Part shown: positions 14 to 15,786 of the stretch, piece after piece | Position numbering within the stretch: the first letter of the stretch is position 1 | Layout of the letters: the number at the start of each line of letters is the position of its first letter | DNA from: Candidatus Saccharimonadota bacterium | GTDB lineage: Bacteria; Patescibacteriota; Saccharimonadia; Saccharimonadales; 2-12-FULL-41-12 | DNA: 46,769 nucleotides | NCBI GenBank assembly: GCA_022842995.1 | Contig: JALHOM010000010.1 | Coordinates: 1-46,769 of the forward strand | Direction: 5' to 3' | Translations under genes and position numbers: made by a program | The notes under the pieces: model-generated | What the model was told of the DNA's origin: nothing | The model's database searches: none | Seen by the model: the letters and a program-made list of their open reading frames with translations, nothing else

Positions 14-3000
14 CATTTATAATTACGCTTTCGATAAAAGCGCCAACTTTTCTCAACAAGAGTTGATAGAGACCGTTGCGAAAGACCCAGAATTTATAAA
101 ATATTTCGGCGAGAATATTCAATCCCTCAATACTCTCGACACTGACTCGGACGGTACGCCAGATTATCGTGATTCCGACGATGATAACGATGGCATAAAA
201 GATAAAGACGATACCGACGATGATAACGACGGCGTCGCTGATTCTTCTGACCCAAGTGCAGCTATAGTCGGGCTGGTGGCAGCGTCTCAAAATTCGGTAA
301 CTGATGGGCCTCTCGCTCAGGGTGCTGACGGCGAAGACGGCGAAGACGGGCTTGATGGCCGCGATGGTGTCGACGGCGAAGATGGCCTCGACGGAACCGG
401 CACGGATGGGACTGACGGCAGTGGTGGATCTAATGGTACTGATGGCACTGGCGGTACGGACGGAAATAACGGCGGTGACGGGTCCAATGGTAATGACGGC
501 AACAATGGTCTCGTGGGTCCAGCTGGACCTGCTGGAGCTGCCGGACCGAAGGGCGACAAGGGCGACAGAGGTGATACCGGAGCAACGGGCGCAACCGGCG
601 CTACCGGAACGGTCGGTGTCGTCACCGACGACGGCGTTGTTCAAACAACCCTGACTGGCGCTGATTTGAATATCCAACTTCTTCTTGCTGCTGGCTCTGG
701 TCTCGAGAAATCAGGCGCTGGGCTCAGCCTGACGCGAACCTGTGCCACCAACGAAGTTTTGAAATGGGACGGCGCTGAATGGAACTGTGCTTCAGATGAC
801 GGCGGAATTTCTTATACTGCTGGCAGTGGCATAACAATTGCTTCTGGCGTGATTTCATCTGTTTTAGGCACGGCTATCGAAACTGGTGAGCTAGCTGATG
901 ACGCCGTAACCAGCGTTAAACTGGCTGATGGCTCGGTGGTGACCAGCAAAATCGTGGACGACGCAGTTCTCACGGCCAAGATTGCCGACGGCAACGTAAC
1001 GACTGGTAAACTGGCTGATGCTTCCGTTGCAACAGCTAAGCTAATAGATAGCGCGGTTACTTTCGGTAAAATTCAAAACCTCACTGCCAATAGCCTCTTT
1101 GGTAACCCGACTGGTTCTGCTGCGGCAGGCACAAACGTAACCATTGGTCCTGGACTCACCTTTAATGCTGGCGCACTCGAAAACGCCGGTATTTTAGCCG
1201 TTGGCGTGAGCGGGCCTTTGCAGTCAACTGGTGGCCAAAGCCCTACGCTGTCATTTGCTCAAGCAACCGGCTTAGTGGATGGCTATTTAGGCGCGACAGA
1301 CTTCGCTACGTTTGCCGCTAAAGAAAACGCTCTTACTTTTAATGGTAATGGCGCTTTTGCACGCAGTGGAAATGTGATCAACGCGACAACTTGTGCATCA
1401 AACGAAATACTTAAGTGGAACGGCTCGGCGTGGGCTTGTGCAAATGATAATAACGGCGCAGCTACGGCGGGCGACCTTACTTCGGCAACATCGGGCATAA
1501 CTATTACGAATGGCGGCAACGCTGTTCTCGGTAGTGGTACTTCAATTGCGATTGCCACAGCAAATGGTAGCGCAAATGGTCTTTTGAGTTCTGTTGACTG
1601 GAACACCTTTGATGCTAAGGAAGACGCCCTCACCTTTACCGGCAATGGTTTATTTAGCCGAGTTGGCAACACGATTAGCTCGACGACTTGTAGCAATAAC
1701 CAGATCGTTAGATCAAACGGCGTCAGCTGGGTGTGCTCAAACGATACAGATACCACATATGCTGCCGGTACTGGCTTGTCTTTGGCTGGAAATACCTTTA
1801 ACAACACCGGGATTTTGAGCGTGGCCGTTTCTGGTCCTTTGCAGGCGACCGGTGGCCAAAACCCAACATTTAGCATTGTTCAAGCAACGGGCTTAGTCGA
1901 CGGATACTTGAGTGCTACTGATTTTGCCAGTTTTGCGGCTAAGCAGGCAGCCCTACCTACAGGACTCTCCACGCAGTATCTTAAGGGAGATCTAACTCTT
2001 GGCACGCTTGACACGAGCGAGGTCGCCGAAAACGGTAATCTATACTTTACCAACGGACGTGCCGATGGTCGGATTACTATTCAAAAAGGCGCAGCAAATG
2101 GTCTTGCCACGCTTGATGGTACCGGCAAAATCCCAACCAGTCAGCTCCCTGCCCTGGCCATCACCAATACCTTTGTTGTGGCTGACCAGACAGCAATGTT
2201 GGCATTGACGGCTAACCAAGGTGATATCGCCGTTCGTACCGACACATCAGAAACCTATGTTTTGAGCGCAACACCAGCCAGTGTTCTCGGCAACTGGCAG
2301 GAACTGCTAACCCCTACCTCCCCTGTTTTGTCGGTGAATGGTCAAACAGGTGCTATCACGCTTACCTCGTCTAATATTACTGAAGGCAGCAATTTGTACT
2401 TCACTGATGCTCGAGCCCGTGGTGCGCTGAGCGTCACTGGCCCTCTGACATACAACAGCGGTACGGGTGTTCTTGGCATCGATCAGGCTAACACAAGTAC
2501 CGGTGGGTTCTTGGCATCGGCCGACTGGAACGCTTTTAACGCGAAAGAAAACGCCTTAACATTCAACGGTCGCGGCATCTTTACTCGTGCTGGTAATGCA
2601 GTCACTGCCGTAGCTTGTTCTACTGGAGAGACGTTGAAATATGACGGCACAACCTGGAACTGTTCTGCCGATTCTAATACGACTTATTCGGCCGGAACTG
2701 GCCTTTCTTTGGCTGGCACGACATTTAATTTGTCGGACACGAGCGTTTCTGCAGGCACGTTTGGTACTGCGGCTTCCGTGCCAGTATTTACGGTTGACGC
2801 TCAAGGTCGCCTGACCGGTGTTACGAACACCGCTATTTCTGGTCTTACCACTTCAAACCTTAGCGGTACGGCTGGTATCACGAATGCACAACTTGCTAAC
2901 CCAGGCATAACGTTTGCTCTTGGAACTTCTGGTGTGGATGCTAACTGGGGCGTATCTACGGTAAACCTTGGCGGCACGGCTACACTTAATATCCCGGATG

Positions 3001-6000
3001 CTAGTGCGTCTGCTCGAGGTCTCATCAATACGGGAGCGCAAACCATTGCCGGTAATAAAACTCTTTCTGGTAACACCAATTTAAGTGGTACCCTAGCGCT
3101 CAATAGAGGTGCAGATTATTCCAATGTTGGCTCAACAAACGATGTTAACTTCGGTAACACTTCCCTCGTTCGTCTGACGGGTGCTTCTGCGCAGACAATC
3201 ACCGGTATCGCTGGTGGCACTGACGGCAGGCTCTTAACCATTATTAATGCTGCATCTCAAGCTGCTACCATCTCTAATGAATCCGTAAGCTCAACCGACG
3301 TTAACCGTATAAGAACTGGCACCGGCGCTGACTTGAATTTAGCTGCTGACGCTTCCCTATCGCTTGTTTATGACTCTGGTGCTTCACGCTGGCGCGTTGT
3401 TGGCGGCACGGGTGGCTCTGGTGGTGGTTACAGCTCACTCGACATCGCTAACGATGCAGATGGCGGCGCTATCGGCACGGCTGTAGGTACGGTAGACACC
3501 TATACTAACTTCAACATGGCTCAAACGACTGCGTCTCAAACCTTTACTATCCCAAGCCCGACAAACACAACGACTACCCGGGGTAAGATCATAACTATCA
3601 ATAATACGGGTTCTGCAAACTTCACAATCGGTGGAATAACGATACCTGCTGGATCATACGGCTCGGCATTCGTGTGGAATGGTACTGTGTGGAACCCAAT
3701 TAATGCAGCCAGCAATGTGGCATTCAACAGCGTTCGAGCCGACATTACTTCTGGACAAACAACAGCATCGACGACTTCGGTAGACGTAACTGGTGGGTCA
3801 TTTACGATTTCGAGTGCTGGTTTGTATGAACTTTCGTATTCAGTTCCTTTCGCAGGTTCGACTGCCGGAGTGCCTGCTACATTTGAAATTACAGACAGTT
3901 CCAATGCGGTCGTTGCAAATACTACGGTACGTGCAACTTCTAGCAATGCTGGCGTGCGCGTAGGTACGGCAAATGTTGGCGACGTAAATACTGCTAACGG
4001 ATGTGCGTCCAGCGGAGCAATAATTTCATGTTCTAATACCAGCGGTGTCGGAAATAATCGCTATACGGTTAACTATGCCGACCTTGGCTACGCACCAATT
4101 GTTGTTGCACAGTACCGTGATGCGGTGAATACGGGAACGATTTCTAACGACATGAGCATAATGCCTGTAGTCGGCACTCCGACAAACACGTCAGCCCAAT
4201 TCTTCCTCGAGGAGTCAGCTTCTAATGGGCAAAACGTAACAATCAATATTCTGCTTATCGATCCCACAGCAACCGACGTTTCAAGGGCAGTACTAACACC
4301 TGTCACGACAAATCTTGCGGCGGGAACATACAAGTTGCGCGTTAAGTCTGGTAATGCTGCAAGTACCATTACTGTTTACAATAACACTACTCAAGGTGCT
4401 GGCTTTGTTACTGCCTCGCAAGTTGGCGGTAACGTCCCTGCTATAGGGCAGATCACTAACTTTATAAATGCGCGCAGTACTTCTGGAAACAGCGGGGCAT
4501 CTGGCACAATTACATTTGCTGGTGGGGACATAGTAGCCAATAATGGATTTAGCCTAGCTAGCAACGCATTTACAGCTACATCGAGCGGTACATATCGTGT
4601 CCGCCTCGAAGTACAGGTTACATCGGCTAGCGGTAACTTTGAGTCGGTTAACCTTCAGCTTCGCAGGAATGGTTCGGCAGTGTTTACGACGCCGACAACA
4701 AACGTGGCAGAAATTGATGGCTATGGCGCTTTTGGTGTTCCGCATTCAATCGACCAAGTCATAACACTAAGTGCCGGTGATAATGTGTCCTTCGCTTGGG
4801 GCGGCAGTGGCGGAAGTAAGGTCATTGGCCTCAAGGATCTTAATATTACCCAACTGGGCTCTTCAGCCTTTACGACCGTGTCTATGAGCGCCCTTTCGGC
4901 TGCCCTCGCCAATAACTCACTCGACAACGCCGCATTCGCCCAAACCTGGAACTGGAACTCCTTAACTACCGGCACAGGACTAACGTCTAACGCGAATGCC
5001 CTCACCAGCGGTATCCTCCAGCAACTCGCCACCAGCTCTACAGCCTTCACCGGTTCCCTCTTAAATCTTTCGTCAACTGGTAATGCCGTTACCTCCACTG
5101 GCTCTCTTGCCAAGCTCGACATTGTCGGCTCGTCTAATGCGGCTAAAGGCCTTCAGATAAATAATGCTGGTACTGGCGACGGCATAAATGTTGCTTCAAC
5201 AGGAGCTGGATTTGCACTCAAGACATCTGGTGCGGTAGCCTTTGCCGCTGGGACGAACTTTGCAAGTACGGCAACCGCGCACAACGCAGCCTTTGGCAAT
5301 ACGTCGCTTATTCGAATCACCGGCTCGACAGCTATGAACCTCACGGGTATTAAGTCTGCCGATGGCACCGACCATACTACGCCGGCTAACGAAGATGGTC
5401 GACTGCTCACCATCCTAAATACCAGTAGTGCAATCACGACTATCGCAAATAACAACTCTGGTTCAGTTGCGGCTAACCGGATCATTACGGGCACAGGTGC
5501 TGATCTGTCGCTTGCAGCTGGTGCTGCTATCCAAATGGTATACGACTCAACTAGCACTGCTACTGGGGGTACGGGCTCTTGGCGTGTTATTGGTGGCACC
5601 GGTGGTTCAGGTGGTAGCTCATTCTCATCAAGTACTATTACTTCCAACTTCCCGACGGGTGGTGCTATCGGCACTGCAGCCGCTACGGTCGATGCTTTCA
5701 CCTCGTTTATCCTCTCCGGCCAGACAACAGCCGGTCAAGCACTCAGCTTGCCAAGCCCAACAGTCACTACAGCAGGAAGAATTGTCACGGTTACGAATAC
5801 ATCAACAGCAAGCTTCACTATGTACACGACGCAGCTTTCAGCAAGCAGTCCATCAGCAAGCTTTATCTGGAATGGCTCATCTTGGAACCCGATTGGTACG
5901 AGCTCTAATGTGGCGAGTGAGTTTGGAGAAGTTGTTCTAGGGTCAAACATGGCTTTGACCACTGGTACCTTGACGACAGTTGTGTCTACGCCAGTCTTGC

Positions 6001-9000
6001 CGGCAGGTACCTGGAAAATCGAAGCGCAGGTCGCCGTTAGCACGGACACGAATGCTCAAACTTTTGCAGCGGGAATTTATAGCTCAGATAACCTAACAAC
6101 TAATATTTCAGCTGCAGCTCAACTGGTCTACGCGGGAGGCCCGTCGAGTGGTACCAGCACAAATTGGAGTACATTTGTCGTAAGTGATGGAACGAAGAGC
6201 TACCTATTGCGTGTACGAGAAAACAACACCAACGCTACCGTACTAGGCGCTCAAGACATTGGAGCGGTAAACACGGGTGCCGTTACCAAGCTTGTATATA
6301 CCAAAGTCTCGGGCAACGCTGCAGTGACGGGCCAGAGTGTAGACTATGTAAGTAGAGAAACTTCTGCCGGAACAACCTATGCTGCAAATGCGACAGTAGC
6401 CTACGGCACAGCAATTAGCGGTAACATTCCTTATAACACCACTCTTAACCAGAACTTTACTGGTCCTGCAGGTACATTCAGACTCACAGCAGGCAAGACG
6501 TATCAGTTGACATCCTTCAACAGGATAATCACTGGGACAAACTCTAGCTACTTCTGGTACAACAATACCGCCACAGCCCCTATACCTGGTGTTCATTCAA
6601 TTGCTAGAAACACAGATGCACAACCTGCAGCAATTTCGATATTCACACCTACTGTTGATACTGTTGTCTCGGTACGAAACGGCTCTTCTTCTGCAGAATA
6701 CCAATATGGCTATGCAGATATCGTCCAAATAGGTTCAACAGCCTTTACAACTGTATCCATGAGTACGCTCAGCGCGGCCCTCGCAAGTAACGCTCTCGAC
6801 AACACTAACTACACACAAACCTGGGATTGGTCTACGCTTAGCACAGGCACTGGACTTACGTCTAACGCGAATGCTTTGACCTCTGGTATCTTGCAGCAAC
6901 TCGCCACCAGCTCAACAGCCTTCACCGGTTCCCTTCTGAACCTTTCGTCAACTGGTAATGCCGTTACGTCAACTGGTTCTTTGGCCAAACTTGACATAGT
7001 AGGTTCGACTAACGCCGCAAAAGGTCTGCAGATAAACAACGCAGGTACTGGCGATGGCATAAACATTGCTTCGACCGGCACAGGACTTGGTGCTAACATC
7101 GGTGGTGCGGTAGCCTTCCGCTCTGGTACTACCTATACAACCCCAGGCTCTGCGAACGACGTCGTACTGAGCAATGCGAGCTTTGTGCGGCTTGACACTT
7201 CTGGCGCGGCACAGACTCTGACCGGTATCGCTGGTGGAGTAGACGGTAAGCTACTGACACTCACTAACGCAGATGCTACTTTGGCGGTTACGCTCGTTAA
7301 TCAGTCCACAAGCTCTGCTCCAGCGAATAGAATCGTTACCGGCACGGGTACTGATCTGACAATTGTGGCTGGCGCATCTGTTAACCTTATCTATGACGCA
7401 ACCGATAGTCGCTGGCGTGTTGTCGGTGGTACCGGTGGTTCTGGCGGTGGCTTCAGCTCCCTCGACATCGCTAACGATGCAGACGGTGGCAATATAGGGA
7501 CTGCGGCTGCGACTGTAGACCAATTTACTAACTTCAACATGGCTCAGACTACAGCATCTCAAACCTTCACCATCCCTAGCCCAACCAACACAACAAGCAC
7601 ACGAGGCAAGATCATTACTGTCAACAACACAGGTTCGGCTAACTTCACCATAGGTGGGATAACAGTACCTGCCGGTAGCTATGGCTCGGCCTTTGTATGG
7701 AATGGCACGGTGTGGAATCCTTTGAATGCGGCGAGCAATGTGGCTGCAAGCTATGCCCAGATCAATCGAACGGCGTCTCAGACTACAGACTGCTCTGGTG
7801 GCGCGCTCGGTGTAAATGATCGTGTCTGCTTTAGTAACGTGGCGGCAACAACAGGTACAGATATAACCGTTGACTTAGCAGCTGACGCGAACCAAGGTCG
7901 CGTACTGCTTAAAGCCGGCAAAACATATCGACTGTTTGGTTCTGTCGGAGCATTAAGCGCTAACGGTGGGGCAGATAATTACGTTTCATTTGCATGGTAT
8001 AACATTACAGCGGGCGCAGAAGTAACAGGTGGTTCAAGAGGTTCAGTAGAGGGCTCTACAGAAGCAAGTGCTGACGCATTACAGTCATACGCAGAAGCCA
8101 TCATTACACCGTCCACAGATACGTATGTTGAGCTAAGAATTCTAGCACTTGGAGGTAATACAACATCTATTGGATCGGCCAATTACGGATTACCTCGGGC
8201 ATATGTTGAGGTTGTTTCAGGCAACGCGCCAGTTGTTGGGCAGAGTGTGGACTTTGCACAGTTCAGATTAGCAGCAAACACAACTGCCTATTCTGCTAAC
8301 GCTAACATTCCTCAAGGAACCACTGTAACAACTACTGCAGGTAATATCCCTGTCACCTCAGCAGGACTTATCACCCTGACCGCTGGAAAGACATACAGAT
8401 TTGATACTCAGATAGCTCTTAGTAATGCTGGGTCAAATGCGTACCTCTATTACGGGCTTTTTGATACCAATGATGTAAGGATACCAAACTCTCCAACGGG
8501 TGTGGCTGCATCAACAGAGCTGGGTCTTTCTGGTATATCTTCTGCCCCTAGTTTTGGATTTGTGTACACACCAACCACTAACCAAACAGTTAAGTTCCGC
8601 ACGGATGGTGTAGGGGGAAGCCCAATCATTAACAGTGGCAATACTTACTTCACTGTTACTCAGCTTGGTTCAAGCTCAGTGACATCACTAGATATTGCCG
8701 GAGAGTATGGAGAAGTAAGGTTGCCTTCCACAGTAAACATTACAGGAGGTAATACAACACCAGCGACGGCTATAGACGTAATGTCGTTCACACTGCCAAG
8801 TGCGGGGGTGTGGAAGGTGACATACATAGCAAGCGTAAGCAATAATGCAGGTGGAAGTAACCCAACCGTAGGCATCTTTGATAGTACCAATGCCTTTATT
8901 GCGAACTCAAATATTCTTGGTACATTTACTAATACTGGAGGATCAACTGTCGTAAACACTTCTACTGGAGTTACGTTCGTTACTACTAGCGGTCCAGCTG

Positions 9001-10736
9001 TGTACAGAATGCGAGCATGGTCCGGTAACGGTACTGGTGTTATAACTGGTTCAACAGGCTCTAACCAAGACTTAACTAAAGTAGTCTACGAAAAAATCTC
9101 TGGCTTCAGGCCAACAATAGGTCAAAGCGTAGAAGCAGCAACATTCAACTTAGGTTCAAACTGGTCTAATAGCACTGGAAACTTTGTAAACACTTGGCAA
9201 ACAGCGGCTGCAACTGGTACAACGACAATAACGTCCAGCGGTACAAACTTCGTTATTCCTGCAGGTAAAGCATTTACTGCTAATCTTTCGCTTGTGTCTC
9301 AGTCTGGTGTTCATTCAACTTTTTCTGTACGTGATGTTACAGGGGGGGGTCCTGGGGTACAACTTGGTTCGGGTTTGGCAATCGGAATGAGTGAAGGACC
9401 AAACTGGAGCTCTAGTTCGGCCCAGGCAGTGTACATACCGGCCAGCGGTACAGCACGTACAATCTCAGTACGCCTAGACGGCGTAAACACAACTAATCCA
9501 ACACTTAATTCTAACTACAGCTCAATAACCTTTACGCAAGCTGGCACAACTGCAATGACTGGTGTTGCAATGTCTTCACTCGCCGCAGCGCTTGCTAGCA
9601 ACGCCCTCGACAATACCAGCTTTGCCCAGACATGGAACTGGTCATCGCTTGCAGCCGGTACATCTGGCCTTACCTTTGGCAACACTGTCGGTGGCACGAC
9701 TCAAAACAACGTCATCACTATTCTTGGTGGTAACAACACGGGCGTGGCAGCATCTCAACTGATCACCTTTAGGCGAACTGACGGCACGGTAATTGGCTCA
9801 GTATCTCAAAACGCTGCCAGCACCGTCGCCTATAACACGACATCTGACCAGCGGCTCAAGTCCGACATAACAGATAGCGAGCTTGGCCTTGATGCCCTGC
9901 TTAAGATCAAAGTTCGTGACTATAGCTACGCCTCCGACCCGACTGGCAAGAAACTCCAAGGTTTTGTAGCCCAGGAACTGGCTGAGGTCTATGGCCAGGC
10001 GGTAACCGTCGGTTCTGACCAGGTTGACGAGAATGGCCTACTCACCAACCCATGGCAAGTCGACTATGGCAAGCTCACCCCTCTACTGGTTAAGGGTATG
10101 CAAGAACTAAACATGAAGATCGAAGCGAACAAGGTTTCGATAGACGGGCAGAACGTTGATGGACTCTCTGATGTAAACAGCAAGCTTGTAAAGATCACCG
10201 AAGGCCTGACCCAAGTTTCTGGTGATGTCGTTGCTATCAACACCGCTCTCGATACTGTTAACAAGCGCCTGGAAGGTCTTGATACTCGTCTAGCCGCCCT
10301 AGAAGGCAAAACTCCAACGACTGTCGAGAAAACGACTACCGTCCAAAATACACCGGTCACGAACGTCACGCAGCAAATCGTCAAAGACACTGCCCAGTAC
10401 GGCAGCGTTAAGATCTTGAAGGGTAAGATCGGTGTTAAGGTGACCTTTACGACCGCCTACAAGACCGCTCCTGCCGTCTTCATAACACCTCTTAGCGGTG
10501 CTGAATACACGCTTGAGACGGTCAGTACAACTGAGTTCGTGATCAAGCTAAAAGAGCCAGCTACGGCTGACCAAGGCTTTAACTGGATGGCTGCCGAGTA
10601 CGAGCCAGGCACAAACAGTGGTGGCGACCAGATCGACGCCCCGGTTGTCCCCGTCCCGGCTATTTCTACGAGCGCACCAGCCCAAGCGCAACCAGAAAAC
10701 CAGAACGAAAACACGCCTACTAACAGTGGCCAATAA
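14..10736 (+). CDS. Giant secreted modular adhesin / tail-fibre-like protein, 5' truncated: TSP3-like Asp repeats, collagen-like repeats, tail-fibre modules, C-terminal peptidase S74 domain
   Basis: The frame stays open from base 1 to the TTG used at 63 (..IYNYAFDKSANFSQQELIETVAKD..), so the listed start is artificial. Motifs: DTDSDGTPDYRDSDDDNDG; GPAGPAGAAGPKGDKGDRGDTGATGATG; TTSDQRLKSDI...GFVAQELAEVYG (S74); C-terminal coiled coil. Confidence 0.9.
3130..3723 (+). repeat. Scaffold module A copy 1 in the giant protein (..VRLTGASAQTITGIAGG..WRVVGGTGGSGGG..FVWNGTVWNPINAASNVA)
   Basis: Near-identical protein sequence recurs around 5270-5916 and 7140-7745. Confidence 0.85.
4853..5206 (+). repeat. 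Scaffold module B copy 1 (..TTVSMSALSAALANNSLDN..LAKLDIVGS..)
   Basis: Shares the identical string LTSNANALTSGILQQLATSSTAFTGSLLNLSSTGNAVTSTGSLAKLDIVGS with 6731-7085. Confidence 0.88.
5270..5916 (+). repeat. Scaffold module A copy 2 (more diverged)
   Basis: WRVIGGTGGSGGSS..GGAIGTAAATVDAFTSF..FIWNGSSWNPIGTSSNVA. Confidence 0.75.
6731..7085 (+). repeat. Scaffold module B copy 2
   Basis: See module B copy 1; a partial third copy lies near 9544-9660 (TGVAMSSLAAALASNALDNTSFAQTWNWSSL). Confidence 0.88.
7140..7745 (+). repeat. Scaffold module A copy 3
   Basis: WRVVGGTGGSGGGFSSLDIANDADGG..NFNMAQTTASQTFTIPSPTNTTSTRGKIIT..FVWNGTVWNPLNAASNVA, nearly identical to copy 1. Confidence 0.85.
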
Positions 10737-11294: not shown

Positions 11295-12212
11295 TTAGCT
11301 CGCAATAGATGGTTCAGGGATTTTGAACCATACACCTTCGGCTGGATGCAGTTTTGGTGTCAGTAGTCTGAACTCTAGATTATGATTTTTGGCCTGGGCA
11401 TCGTGGGCGTGCTTTAGAAACTCGCTGAGATATTCGACGGCAAAGACAAGGTTTGAATTATGAACTTCGGTGAGGAGCCGTGGTTGATAGCCTTGTCGAC
11501 CAGCTGCGACAACAGCATGAAGGACCTCACGCGGTAAGGTTTTGCCACCGTAACCACGTTGATCAGGGCGTACGGTAGTGCCTTCAGAAACTGAAGGGTT
11601 AGATGCTAGCCAGCCTTCACGAACAACGTTCCAGTCGGCTCCAACAGTCTGTGAAATCTCGTACATTTCGTTGACGAAGGTAACTTTGAGTGCCAGGAAA
11701 GTTAGTATCGTAGAAGCGATGACCTCTGCTTCAACAGATGAACACTGGATATATTTGGTCTCGTGTCCATACATTCGCTGAAGCAACGTCACCCATGGTC
11801 TGCTCATTTCTTTATTTCCGCCGATGACGAGGAAATCCGGGTCATTCATGTCATCTTCGTTGGTAATGGTTTTGGGGATATAGGGGCAATACACAAGTTT
11901 TTTGTTGGTCAGGATCTCTAGTTCTGCGATTGCACCGGGGTCGAGTAAGGTGCGTATCAAGATGAGGTCTTGCGGGATTGAGTCGATTGTTTGTTTTAGT
12001 TTGCTGATGTTACGGGAACCGTCTTCGTTGATGGTAGTAGGCAGACAGATCACGGCGGCGTCGGCAGTTACGTGCTTGCCGTTTTTGATGGTTTTTTGGT
12101 ATTTTGGGTCGGATATTTGGATTCTGACTTGGTCGTTGGCGTGCTTATAGAATTCTCTTCCGACGACGCCAAATCCGTAAATGACGACTGAGTTTATGGT
12201 TGTTATATTCAT
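11295..12212 (-). CDS. UDP-glucose/GDP-mannose dehydrogenase family protein, short form lacking the catalytic Cys
   Basis: N-terminal GFGVVG Rossmann motif; FLALKVTFVNE central motif; GYGGKTLPREV where the family has GFGGxCxPKD; AAAGGAG SD. Confidence 0.8.
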   Translation of the reverse strand: MNITTINSVVIYGFGVVGREFYKHANDQVRIQISDPKYQKTIKNGKHVTADAAVICLPTTINEDGSRNISKLKQTIDSIPQDLILIRTLLDPGAIAELEILTNKKLVYCPYIPKTITNEDDMNDPDFLVIGGNKEMSRPWVTLLQRMYGHETKYIQCSSVEAEVIASTILTFLALKVTFVNEMYEISQTVGADWNVVREGWLASNPSVSEGTTVRPDQRGYGGKTLPREVLHAVVAAGRQGYQPRLLTEVHNSNLVFAVEYLSEFLKHAHDAQAKNHNLEFRLLTPKLHPAEGVWFKIPEPSIAS

Positions 12213-12227: not shown

Positions 12228-13508
12228 TTAAATTCCGCGGGTCACCCAGCGTTTGTTTTTAACTGTTACGAGTGCGTATAAGTTGACCCAATACAGGATT
12301 AACTCAAAGAAAAATGCGTAGACAAAGAGTCCGAGCGTCTTTTTGGGTGCGCGCATCAGGACCAAGATGTAGCGAAGTAGCATGGCGATTATCCAGATTG
12401 GCGCAATGATGAGCAGCACATACAATGGGTTGAAGATCAGTAGTAAAAAGATGTAGAGCCGGAAACCGAGGGTTATGTACGGCGCGGTTAGGTCCCAAAA
12501 CGCTATTTGAAAGAACAGTTTCTTTTGGTTTTTCCAGGCGTAACTAAGGGTGTAGAGTGATTCTCGGACGTAGCCCCGCTTCCAGCGTAATTGCTGCCGA
12601 CAGAAACCTTTGATAGTGTCTGGGGTTTCGGTATAACAGATCGCTTCTTCGACGTAGAGTACTTTGTGGCCTCGCTGCAGGATTAGGTTTGTTAAGTGAC
12701 GGTCTTCGGAATGGGTGGCTTTTTCGCCTAGGAATGTTTGTGAGTTGAATTCGTCGATTATCTCTTTGATGAGCGGCGTTTGGTAGGCCGACAGGCAACC
12801 ACTGCAACAGACAACATTGCCGACGGAACTCTGGGCGTTTTTGTAGATGTTCAGCCCCATCCAGTAATACGTACCGGCCATCCTGGTGAGGAGGTTTTTC
12901 TTTTCGTTGAGGAGGAGGACATTTCCGGTGGTAGCGCCGACAGAAGCGTCTTTTAGCGGTGCGGCTATTCTGATCAGAGCATTTCTGTCTAAGATAGTGT
13001 CGCTATCGATGGTTACAACGCAGAAGCTCTCAGGGCTAACCAGGTTACTGACGGCGAAATGGAGGGCTTCCCTCTTGCCTTGGTTATGGGAAAAACGATG
13101 GACGGTGATGTTGTGTCTGTTGGCAATTATTTTCATGAGCCAGGCAGAGTCGCTGAGACTGCCGTCATCGACGATGATGATCTCTTTTCGGCCATGAGCG
13201 TTCTCGACTGAATCGATGGTTTTTGCCAAAAGATCGAGGCGTTCGTTATAGCTCGGGATGATGACGCTAATTAACTCTTTTTCAAGCGAGTCAGAGCGTT
13301 CTTTTTTAAGGTCATTAAAGACGATGAGTGACATGATGTACCAGCTATTCAGCGCTAACAGGCCCAGATAAGCGATGGTGAAAAATTCCCAGTACGGCGC
13401 AAATGTTGGCGAGATCAAGTATAGACCAAAAAGGGCGACCGACAGGATAGGTATAAACAGCAGCGAGCGGTACAGTCTTTTTTGGGATTTAAGCGACCAG
13501 CGGTTCAT
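12228..13508 (-). CDS. Glycosyltransferase family 2, processive membrane type (hyaluronan synthase/NodC-like)
   Basis: SVIIPSYNE, TIDSDTILD, SEDRHLTN and QQLRWKRG (QxxRW) motifs; N- and C-terminal TM segments. Confidence 0.88.
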   Translation of the reverse strand: MNRWSLKSQKRLYRSLLFIPILSVALFGLYLISPTFAPYWEFFTIAYLGLLALNSWYIMSLIVFNDLKKERSDSLEKELISVIIPSYNERLDLLAKTIDSVENAHGRKEIIIVDDGSLSDSAWLMKIIANRHNITVHRFSHNQGKREALHFAVSNLVSPESFCVVTIDSDTILDRNALIRIAAPLKDASVGATTGNVLLLNEKKNLLTRMAGTYYWMGLNIYKNAQSSVGNVVCCSGCLSAYQTPLIKEIIDEFNSQTFLGEKATHSEDRHLTNLILQRGHKVLYVEEAICYTETPDTIKGFCRQQLRWKRGYVRESLYTLSYAWKNQKKLFFQIAFWDLTAPYITLGFRLYIFLLLIFNPLYVLLIIAPIWIIAMLLRYILVLMRAPKKTLGLFVYAFFFELILYWVNLYALVTVKNKRWVTRGI

Positions 13509-14022
13509 TGTGCCCTACCCCCGGCAATTGGTAATAACTTACCGTTGGCGTCACTTGGAAAAAGAAGAACTTGCCATCTTGGACGTTCTTGCACCTTGTA
13601 GCATCGGACGAAAGGTCCGGTCCGAGAGCACTCGAAAGGAGTGAGCTGTCGACATTGTCCGGGATCACTACGTAGCGGACGTATTTTCCATTAACCATTA
13701 CTTTATCGACTTTGGCACCGTTTATATTTGAAATTAATGAAAACCGGTCGGTTTCGATCGCACAGAGCACTCGATTGGTTGAGTTGGCTAGTCTCTCTGC
13801 AATTGTTGCCTCGTTTTCTTTGAGATTGTCCGAGGATGTCAGGATGAAATCACTAGCTCCTGCAAAGTCGGAACTAGCTGCCGCATCCCTGACGACGGAA
13901 GCATCACTTTTTTTGAAAAGGCCAAAGCTTAGGCCGGTGAATAGCCCGAGGGCTAAGATGGCAATAGTCAGCGAGATTATGACCATTGGTTTATTTAGTT
14001 TTGTTCTTTTTTCTTCGTACAT
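13489..14022 (-). CDS. Hypothetical membrane-anchored protein, first gene of the GT2 operon
   Basis: AAAAGGAG SD 7 nt before the ATG at 14022 (MYEEKRTKLNKPM..), a better start than the 14085 extension; TM helix; overlaps the GT2 gene by 20 nt. Confidence 0.75.
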   Translation of the reverse strand: MYEEKRTKLNKPMVIISLTIAILALGLFTGLSFGLFKKSDASVVRDAAASSDFAGASDFILTSSDNLKENEATIAERLANSTNRVLCAIETDRFSLISNINGAKVDKVMVNGKYVRYVVIPDNVDSSLLSSALGPDLSSDATRCKNVQDGKFFFFQVTPTVSYYQLPGVGHNEPLVA

Positions 14023-14040
14023 TTGTTTCTCCTTTTTATT

Positions 14041-14082
14041 AAAAAAACGGCGGTCGCTACTTGTTAGTCGTAGCGACCGCCG
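14041..14082 (-). terminator. Intrinsic terminator inside the leader of the GT2 operon
   Basis: Perfect 13-bp stem CGGCGGTCGCTAC/GTAGCGACCGCCG, 9-nt loop, followed on the minus strand by T7; 3-4 nt before the SD of the 14022 gene. Confidence 0.85.
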
Positions 14083-14331
14083 CAAAAAGTACTGTCAGGT
14101 CGAACAAGGCCTATCCCGACGACGTCATCTAAAAAAAGAGGACATCGCTACGAATAGCATTGATCAATTAACGTGACATTTCTTTACCGTGGTGGGTTCG
14201 CTACTAGCTCGGCGACAGTACAAGCGACCAACATTGCATACTGTGCTTCAACGCTCTGGATTATTCCTTGGACGGCGTGGTCCAAAAAATGAAATGTTAC
14301 CATCGATTAAGACGTTCTAGGCCTTATTCGG
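14048..14331 (-). ncRNA. Candidate structured leader RNA (attenuator or riboswitch-like) ending in an intrinsic terminator
   Basis: Promoter-like TTGCAT (14360-14365) - 16 nt - TACTAT (14338-14343); 13-bp closing helix 14318-14330 with 14101-14113; internal helices 14291-14297/14176-14182, 14268-14273/14280-14285, 14215-14220/14239-14244; terminator hairpin at 14048-14082. Confidence 0.6.
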
Positions 14332-14463
14332 AATACCATAGTAACATAAAGTTGACATTATGCAAATACTTTTTGAAAATACCTCATAATAATTTCATTT
14401 CTCTTATGATTGCGTGTTTTTATGTCGGTGTTTGGTGCGCGTAATGGTGCTAGAATAACCACT

Positions 14464-15369: not shown

Positions 15370-15786
15370 ATGTTAACCAAAATAATAGCCAAGCTCAAAA
15401 AAATGCCCTACGATCGACTGATTGTCCTTCAGATTGTCATATTGCTTCTTGTTGCCATCTTTGGGATGATGCTTCGCTCTGAACCCTTCGATGGTCCTCG
15501 TGGACTACATAGGCTACTGGGGATGTGTGCGGCAGTTATAACCCTGATCAATGGCGTGCGGTTTAGTCGTCAAAAGCGCTTTACTATCAACCAAAAAGCC
15601 TTCTTGTGGGTTCCGTTTACTCTCGTTGTGATGGCCTCTGTCTCGGCTAATTTGATGGGCGATATAGATGCTTATGAAATGCTTTTTAACATGATGCTGA
15701 TGGGCGGAATTCTGGCACTGATTACATCTGTTATTTCGGCAAAAGTTGTGGCGTCAGCCGGGTCTAAAGCAAAACCAGCTAAATAG
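15370..15786 (+). CDS. Hypothetical small membrane protein
   Basis: Several TM segments; AGAGG SD-like sequence upstream. Confidence 0.7.
   Translation: MLTKIIAKLKKMPYDRLIVLQIVILLLVAIFGMMLRSEPFDGPRGLHRLLGMCAAVITLINGVRFSRQKRFTINQKAFLWVPFTLVVMASVSANLMGDIDAYEMLFNMMLMGGILALITSVISAKVVASAGSKAKPAK

Follow-up and report, generated by a model that had tools for sequence, protein, structure and literature searches.

Variants of the c-di-GMP-II riboswitch in Rfam were reportedly defined by the papers of Weinberg in 2017 on riboswitch variants. Two such families, c-di-GMP-II-GAG (RF03169) and c-di-GMP-II-GCG (RF03170), retain the class-II scaffold with a changed ligand pocket. The consensus of the GCG family, GCGAGCCCG, has G69 C70 G73 where canonical c-di-GMP-II RNAs (RF01786) have A69 A70 G73, so the family name appears to spell positions 69, 70 and 73. 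According to a review, the nucleotides of 3Q3Z that contact c-di-GMP are A13, A14, U37, G39, U60, A61, C68, A69, A70, C71, C72, G73 and A74 (PMC7288161). The leader that we describe here shares with RF01786 the order and spacing of P1, P2, P3 and the pseudoknot P4, the conserved UGA, UUGG and GAGC-AGU stretches, and placement before genes of the GGDEF, adhesin and polysaccharide kind. It differs in having C70 and A73 in place of A and G, a weakened P1, an inserted hairpin and additional outer stems. We set the 3Q3Z numbering on our alignment by the conserved AACCG, using what we take to be the 3Q3Z sequence.

The leader lies on the minus strand of a 46,769-nucleotide stretch of DNA from a Candidatus Saccharimonadota bacterium (the window). 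The first-pass annotation had described it as an undescribed kind of structured RNA with no known riboswitch consensus; its coordinates and sequence were reproduced when we re-read positions 14365-14010, but that description does not hold. It is true that no Rfam family reaches its gathering cut-off in the window. However, at a relaxed threshold RF01786 matches 14266-14181, inside the leader, with 26.1 bits (E 0.0027), as compared with a gathering threshold of 53.5 bits. The scores for the two variant families are also below their cut-offs (27.7 bits versus 47.9 for GCG, whose G69 C70 G73 pocket is not present, and 23.0 versus 40 for GAG). There is no match at the gathering cut-off to constitutive RNAs such as 6S, RNase P or tmRNA within the window, and other sub-threshold matches (RUF1, COG2827, Xoo2) are chance-like or cover only the terminator hairpin.

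Stronger evidence comes from a covariance model, R1, that was trained on 24 relatives of the window's sequence type: 16 from the same order (Saccharimonadales) and eight from other taxa (Brevibacillus, Natroniella, Actinotalea, an acidimicrobial MAG, a Falkowbacteria MAG and a Bacillota MAG). The window was left out of this training set, which includes three different loci of the same genome, i.e., two on contig C4 and one on contig C13. R1 scores the aptamer core at 63.1 bits (E 5.5e-15), and the second-best place in the window reaches 12.5 bits. In the alignment of the relatives, 17 of 20 pairs change on both sides, with examples in P1, P2, P3 and P4 that include two pairs of the pseudoknot; paired cells amount to 92.7%, versus 29-43% in slid controls. 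Covariation across the relatives is thus very strong. P2, P3, the P4 pseudoknot and the conserved loop sequences of RF01786 are all found in the window, and homology of the core to the c-di-GMP-II aptamer is well supported. We conclude that the core is a divergent c-di-GMP-II-type domain that lies below the membership threshold of RF01786. Given this homology, we rejected the idea of a novel aptamer for UDP-sugars or other ligands, a candidate sensor that had been put forward at first. Features of the leader, its operon and the C4 aptamers are listed below.

Table. Positions of features in the window and, in the last row, on contig C4 of the same genome (G000)
Feature	Position	Strand	Basis
Promoter-like TTGCAT (14365-14360), N16, TACTAT (14343-14338)	14338-14365	-	sequence
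P0, 5' strand of 13-bp outer stem, CGAATAAGGCCTA	14318-14330	-	folds, shuffles
P1' 5' strand ACAUUUC, pairs with 14182-14176	14291-14297	-	fold
11-bp inserted hairpin, 5' side of P1	14263-14290	-	fold; absent from aligned relatives
c-di-GMP-II-like aptamer core	14180-14267	-	RF01786 and covariance model R1
P4 pseudoknot 5' strand GGUCGCUU	14222-14229	-	alignment, pair counts
P4 3' strand and pocket nucleotides 68-74, GUAGCGAACCCAC	14192-14204	-	alignment, contact list PMC7288161
P1' 3' strand GAAAUGU	14176-14182	-	fold
P0, 3' strand, TAGGCCTTGTTCG	14101-14113	-	folds, shuffles
Intrinsic terminator: 14-bp stem 14083-14070/14060-14047, 9-nt loop, T7 14047-14041	14041-14083	-	sequence, folds
Shine-Dalgarno AAAAGGAG, directly 3' of terminator	14029-14036	-	sequence
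Gene 1: 177-aa protein, one N-terminal membrane segment, no family match	13489-14022	-	
Gene 2: processive GT2 synthase, hyaluronan synthase/NodC-like	12228-13508	-	
Gene 3: UDP-glucose dehydrogenase-like; catalytic Cys region is YGGKTLPRE	11295-12212	-	
Two very similar ACA-type aptamers, ~500 bases apart	G000:C4:14979-15064 and 15475-15560	-	

In the window, the pocket reads A69 C70 A73, and two of the listed c-di-GMP contacts therefore differ from the canonical pocket. C70 is common to the GCG family, whose positions 69 and 73 differ from those of the window. Among 54 RNAs of the order, the pocket is AAG in 34 (with two of these, G087:C6 and G045:C3, assigned by eye), A(C/U)A in 16, AAA in two, and ACC and AAC in one each. 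A73 is present in 16 of the 17 RNAs with a pyrimidine at position 70 versus 2 of the 37 others (Fisher p 1e-10, a value that is not corrected for relatedness). We defined a variant by an R1 match together with A69, C/U70 and A73, and the window's aptamer belongs to this group. Examples of the variant come from Saccharibacteria, Brevibacillus, Natroniella and others; the named records of the same order that carry it are Candidatus Saccharibacteria/Saccharimonas. Under Rfam's convention for naming variants, the window's type would be called "ACA". We found no such family in Rfam 15, although it is possible that the type was mentioned in the 2017 papers.

The change in the pocket could alter specificity. 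We regard it as a tentative possibility that A69, C/U70 and A73 mark a riboswitch class that recognizes 3',3'-cGAMP, another cyclic dinucleotide or a linear relative. Positions 70 and 73 are both listed contacts and change together, canonical and variant aptamers coexist within single genomes (G028, G067, G081 and G107), and Rfam already separates the GAG and GCG pockets. However, the co-occurrence counts are uncorrected for relatedness, and one ACA-type RNA, from Natroniella, passes the ordinary RF01786 cut-off with 59.4 bits. Enzymes that make cGAMP are known to have Ser at the GGDEF substrate site, where Asp is usual. Apart from one protein that is too divergent to read at this position, most of the GGDEF proteins encoded behind variant aptamers carry Asp or Asn at the guanine-binding position, and none has Ser. 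A cGAMP-type GGDEF protein that might explain the pocket is thus not seen behind variant aptamers, and there is no positive evidence for cGAMP.

More information about the ligand comes from the genes that accompany these aptamers. We searched 298 genomes of the order with RF01786 at E up to 1 and found relatives in 51, 19 of them above the cut-off; outside the order, matches within the phylum came from 22 of 389 sampled genomes (this genome included). The genome under study has four aptamers: the window's copy, the two on C4, which RF01786 locates at C4:14982 and C4:15478, and one at C13:25899. Its only GGDEF gene at E <1e-3 is C4:13607-14041. Both C4 aptamers lie in series upstream of it in the same direction, with a 190-aa gene between the nearer aptamer and the GGDEF gene. 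The C13 aptamer precedes a gene for a small LPNTG-containing protein and a GT2 gene. Across the order, a GGDEF gene lies in first or second place at 8 of 16 variant loci versus 3 of 37 other loci (p 0.0014). The genes downstream of canonical and variant aptamers encode SpaA-type adhesins, glucosaminidases, an amidase, L,D-transpeptidases, CAP proteins, GT2 synthases and GGDEF proteins.

The linkage to GGDEF genes and the cell-surface targets point to a cyclic dinucleotide as the ligand, most simply c-di-GMP, for whose binding the linkage is indirect support. No EAL or PilZ domains were detected in this genome. Four aptamers of the same variant before cyclase and cell-surface genes, in a reduced genome with one GGDEF gene and neither of these domains detected, suggest that RNA is a main output of the signal.

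No GGDEF match was obtained at E up to 10 in several aptamer-bearing genomes, including G028, G037, G057 and G029 (95-98% complete). These near-complete relatives raise the question of where the ligand comes from: the cyclase may be divergent, the signal may have been lost, or the ligand may be foreign. In a broader proposal, the A69-C/U70-A73 group would form a separate riboswitch class whose specificity for dinucleotides has changed; this class would be widespread in Saccharibacteria and found also in Brevibacillus and others. In Saccharibacteria with aptamers and no GGDEF gene detected, aptamers of this scaffold would respond to a foreign dinucleotide, which might come from the host cell. 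We consider this proposal distinctly improbable.

Some features of the other copies concern their local arrangement. Each C4 aptamer has its own promoter-like motif and is followed by a short hairpin and T7 directly before an ATG. TTGACA-TATAAT promoter-like motifs lie just upstream of the aptamer at the genome's other aptamer loci. At four loci from Brevibacillus and a Bacillota MAG (L092, L096, L103 and L105), the ACA-type aptamer precedes a gene for a tiny peptide, e.g., MKKWFVAVLLVAGIVAATSAHFNVT, and at three of these four a second similar core lies beside it.

Upstream of the window's leader lie the promoter-like hexamers. These hexamers are present as first annotated and are plausible, matching 8 of 12 consensus bases, with a TG one base before TACTAT (extended -10). 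However, the promoter is unremarkable: it does not rise above chance in a consensus scan, which did not list it. The two strands of P0 form 13 consecutive pairs that close ~230 nt, in agreement with the earlier description of an outer stem. A run of this length for the segment that forms the 5' strand was matched in 0 of 2000 shuffles of the downstream region; if any part of the first 40 nt is allowed to pair with the rest, a run of 13 occurs in 24 of 2000 (1.2%). The 5' strand is alternatively predicted to form a local 5' hairpin. The folding analysis that the first-pass annotation recommended indicates stability beyond that of shuffled sequences both without the terminator (-73.2 kcal/mol, z -3.25, with 0 of 200 shuffles equally stable) and with it (z -5.36).

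The strong terminator with its T7, which abuts the operon's Shine-Dalgarno sequence, was also confirmed; a stock scan does not output it because its loop is 9 nt. The ATG of gene 1, at 14022, is just 3' of the Shine-Dalgarno sequence. This layout supports the proposal, made from the start, of a cis-regulatory attenuation leader that contains an aptamer and controls the polysaccharide operon. The combination of a large terminator and a 13-bp outer stem is seen at the window only, and many relatives of the variant type in the order, unlike the window, seem to place the Shine-Dalgarno sequence in or beside a hairpin.

GGUCGCU is common to the terminator's 5' arm and the 5' strand of P4, and AGUAGCGA is common to the 3' arm and the 3' strand of P4. 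In this respect the terminator looks like a duplicate of P4, and the aptamer's own P4 3' strand and pocket are possible partners for the terminator's 5' arm. As in other riboswitches that use intrinsic terminators, a terminator arm and the ligand-binding core compete for one strand. We folded the RNA at successive 3' ends using an equilibrium, not kinetic, model, either freely or with P2 and P3 enforced and the P4 strands reserved, which mimics the ligand-bound state. With 3' ends at 14069-14057, the arm in the free RNA pairs with 14206-14186 at a mean probability of ~0.9 and the outer stem is at ~0; with P2-P4 occupied, the arm pairing falls to ~0, the outer stem rises to ~0.9, and the terminator forms once its 3' arm has been made. 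The predicted pairings are thus mutually exclusive. At the window alone, the complementarity between arm and P4 is modest (p 0.01-0.03). Over 15 variant loci, the stretch that separates the aptamer from the start codon shows more complementarity to the P4/pocket strand than its shuffles do (Fisher p 5e-4) and also when compared with shuffled P4 strands (p 0.007), while 27 other loci have no such excess (p 0.16).

We consider it likely that the leader is a transcription-attenuation riboswitch based on a divergent c-di-GMP-II-type aptamer, most likely one that senses the dinucleotide made by the sole GGDEF protein. The exclusivity in the successive folds leads us to favor an OFF switch in which ligand locks P4 and causes termination. 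From these folds and the genomic context, we infer the direction of the switch, its ligand and its use in vivo as follows. RNA polymerase would make the aptamer and then the outer stem P0. If no ligand is present, the emerging 5' arm of the terminator (14083-14070) would invade the P4 3' strand and pocket (14204-14189), the outer stem would open, and antitermination would permit read-through into the operon for the hyaluronan synthase-like enzyme. If ligand is bound, P4 and the pocket would be locked, P0 would persist, the terminator would fold and the operon would be off.

The OFF direction is somewhat awkward, given that c-di-GMP more often promotes polysaccharide synthesis and adhesin expression. 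This general tendency would fit an ON switch with the same aptamer and ligand, where binding frees another strand, e.g., the spacer CGUAGCGA (14152-14145), for the terminator's 5' arm, and c-di-GMP would thereby switch polysaccharide synthesis on. The spacer is in fact the best partner of the arm in isolation (-19.7 versus -16.9 kcal/mol). However, at each of the 3' ends that we folded, the spacer engages in local pairs, and a duplex with the arm has probability 0. We therefore consider an ON switch unlikely, and rejected the spacer's copy of GUAGCGA as an antiterminator, since this pairing is strong in isolation but is never predicted in the full RNA.

Other features raise the possibility that the leader is no longer a working switch. 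Only three of the five P1 pairs of the model form in the window, with a 2x2 mismatch, and a 7-bp outer stem and the 11-bp hairpin have been added; the weakened P1 and the insertion beside it mean that this copy may be altered or decayed. It also has the lowest RF01786 score of the genome's four copies (the other three score 40-44 bits), and a search by DNA similarity found no orthologous leader among 100 relatives, the sole match (G072, 80% over ~60 bases) falling on the aptamer core. A decayed riboswitch might have an aptamer that no longer binds and a leader that terminates constitutively, or the terminator might belong to a small RNA. Nevertheless, the core nucleotides of the variant family are intact, the RNA is able to form P2, P3, P4 and the conserved loops, the alternative pairing has been retained, and the terminator, Shine-Dalgarno sequence and operon are intact. 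Moreover, it is hard to see why an intact synthase operon would have a terminator a few nucleotides before its Shine-Dalgarno sequence unless it is regulated. We thus think decay very unlikely, and a working attenuation leader remains our preferred interpretation.

How Saccharibacteria regulate their genes has received little study. This leader probably decides whether an ultra-small Saccharibacterium transcribes an operon for sugar-polymer synthesis. In the open-access papers that we searched, there is no report of c-di-GMP riboswitches in Saccharibacteria and no paper that joins Patescibacteria, c-di-GMP and riboswitches; the sole one joining Saccharibacteria with c-di-GMP and riboswitch concerns a Selenomonas genome. 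Diguanylate cyclase genes are more frequent in ultra-small microbes that are attached to sediment (PMC9938205). The pocket variant also offers a small system in which a change of specificity on the class-II scaffold can be tested directly.

The synthase encoded by gene 2 has the motifs DSD, SEDRH and QQLRW. It matches hyaluronan synthase structures with E 5e-37 and the NodC model with 188 bits, which is under that model's own cut-off of 550. The arrangement of small protein, synthase and dehydrogenase is kept in two distant genomes, which have GGHCIPVD where the window has YGGKTLPRE. Judging from this sequence, the dehydrogenase-like protein of gene 3 is possibly inactive or of changed function. 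It lacks the catalytic Cys that is present in the relative in L133. Finally, the polysaccharide operon adjoins a 3557-aa open frame at 63-10736 on the plus strand, which is weakly similar to collagen-like LPXTG adhesins.
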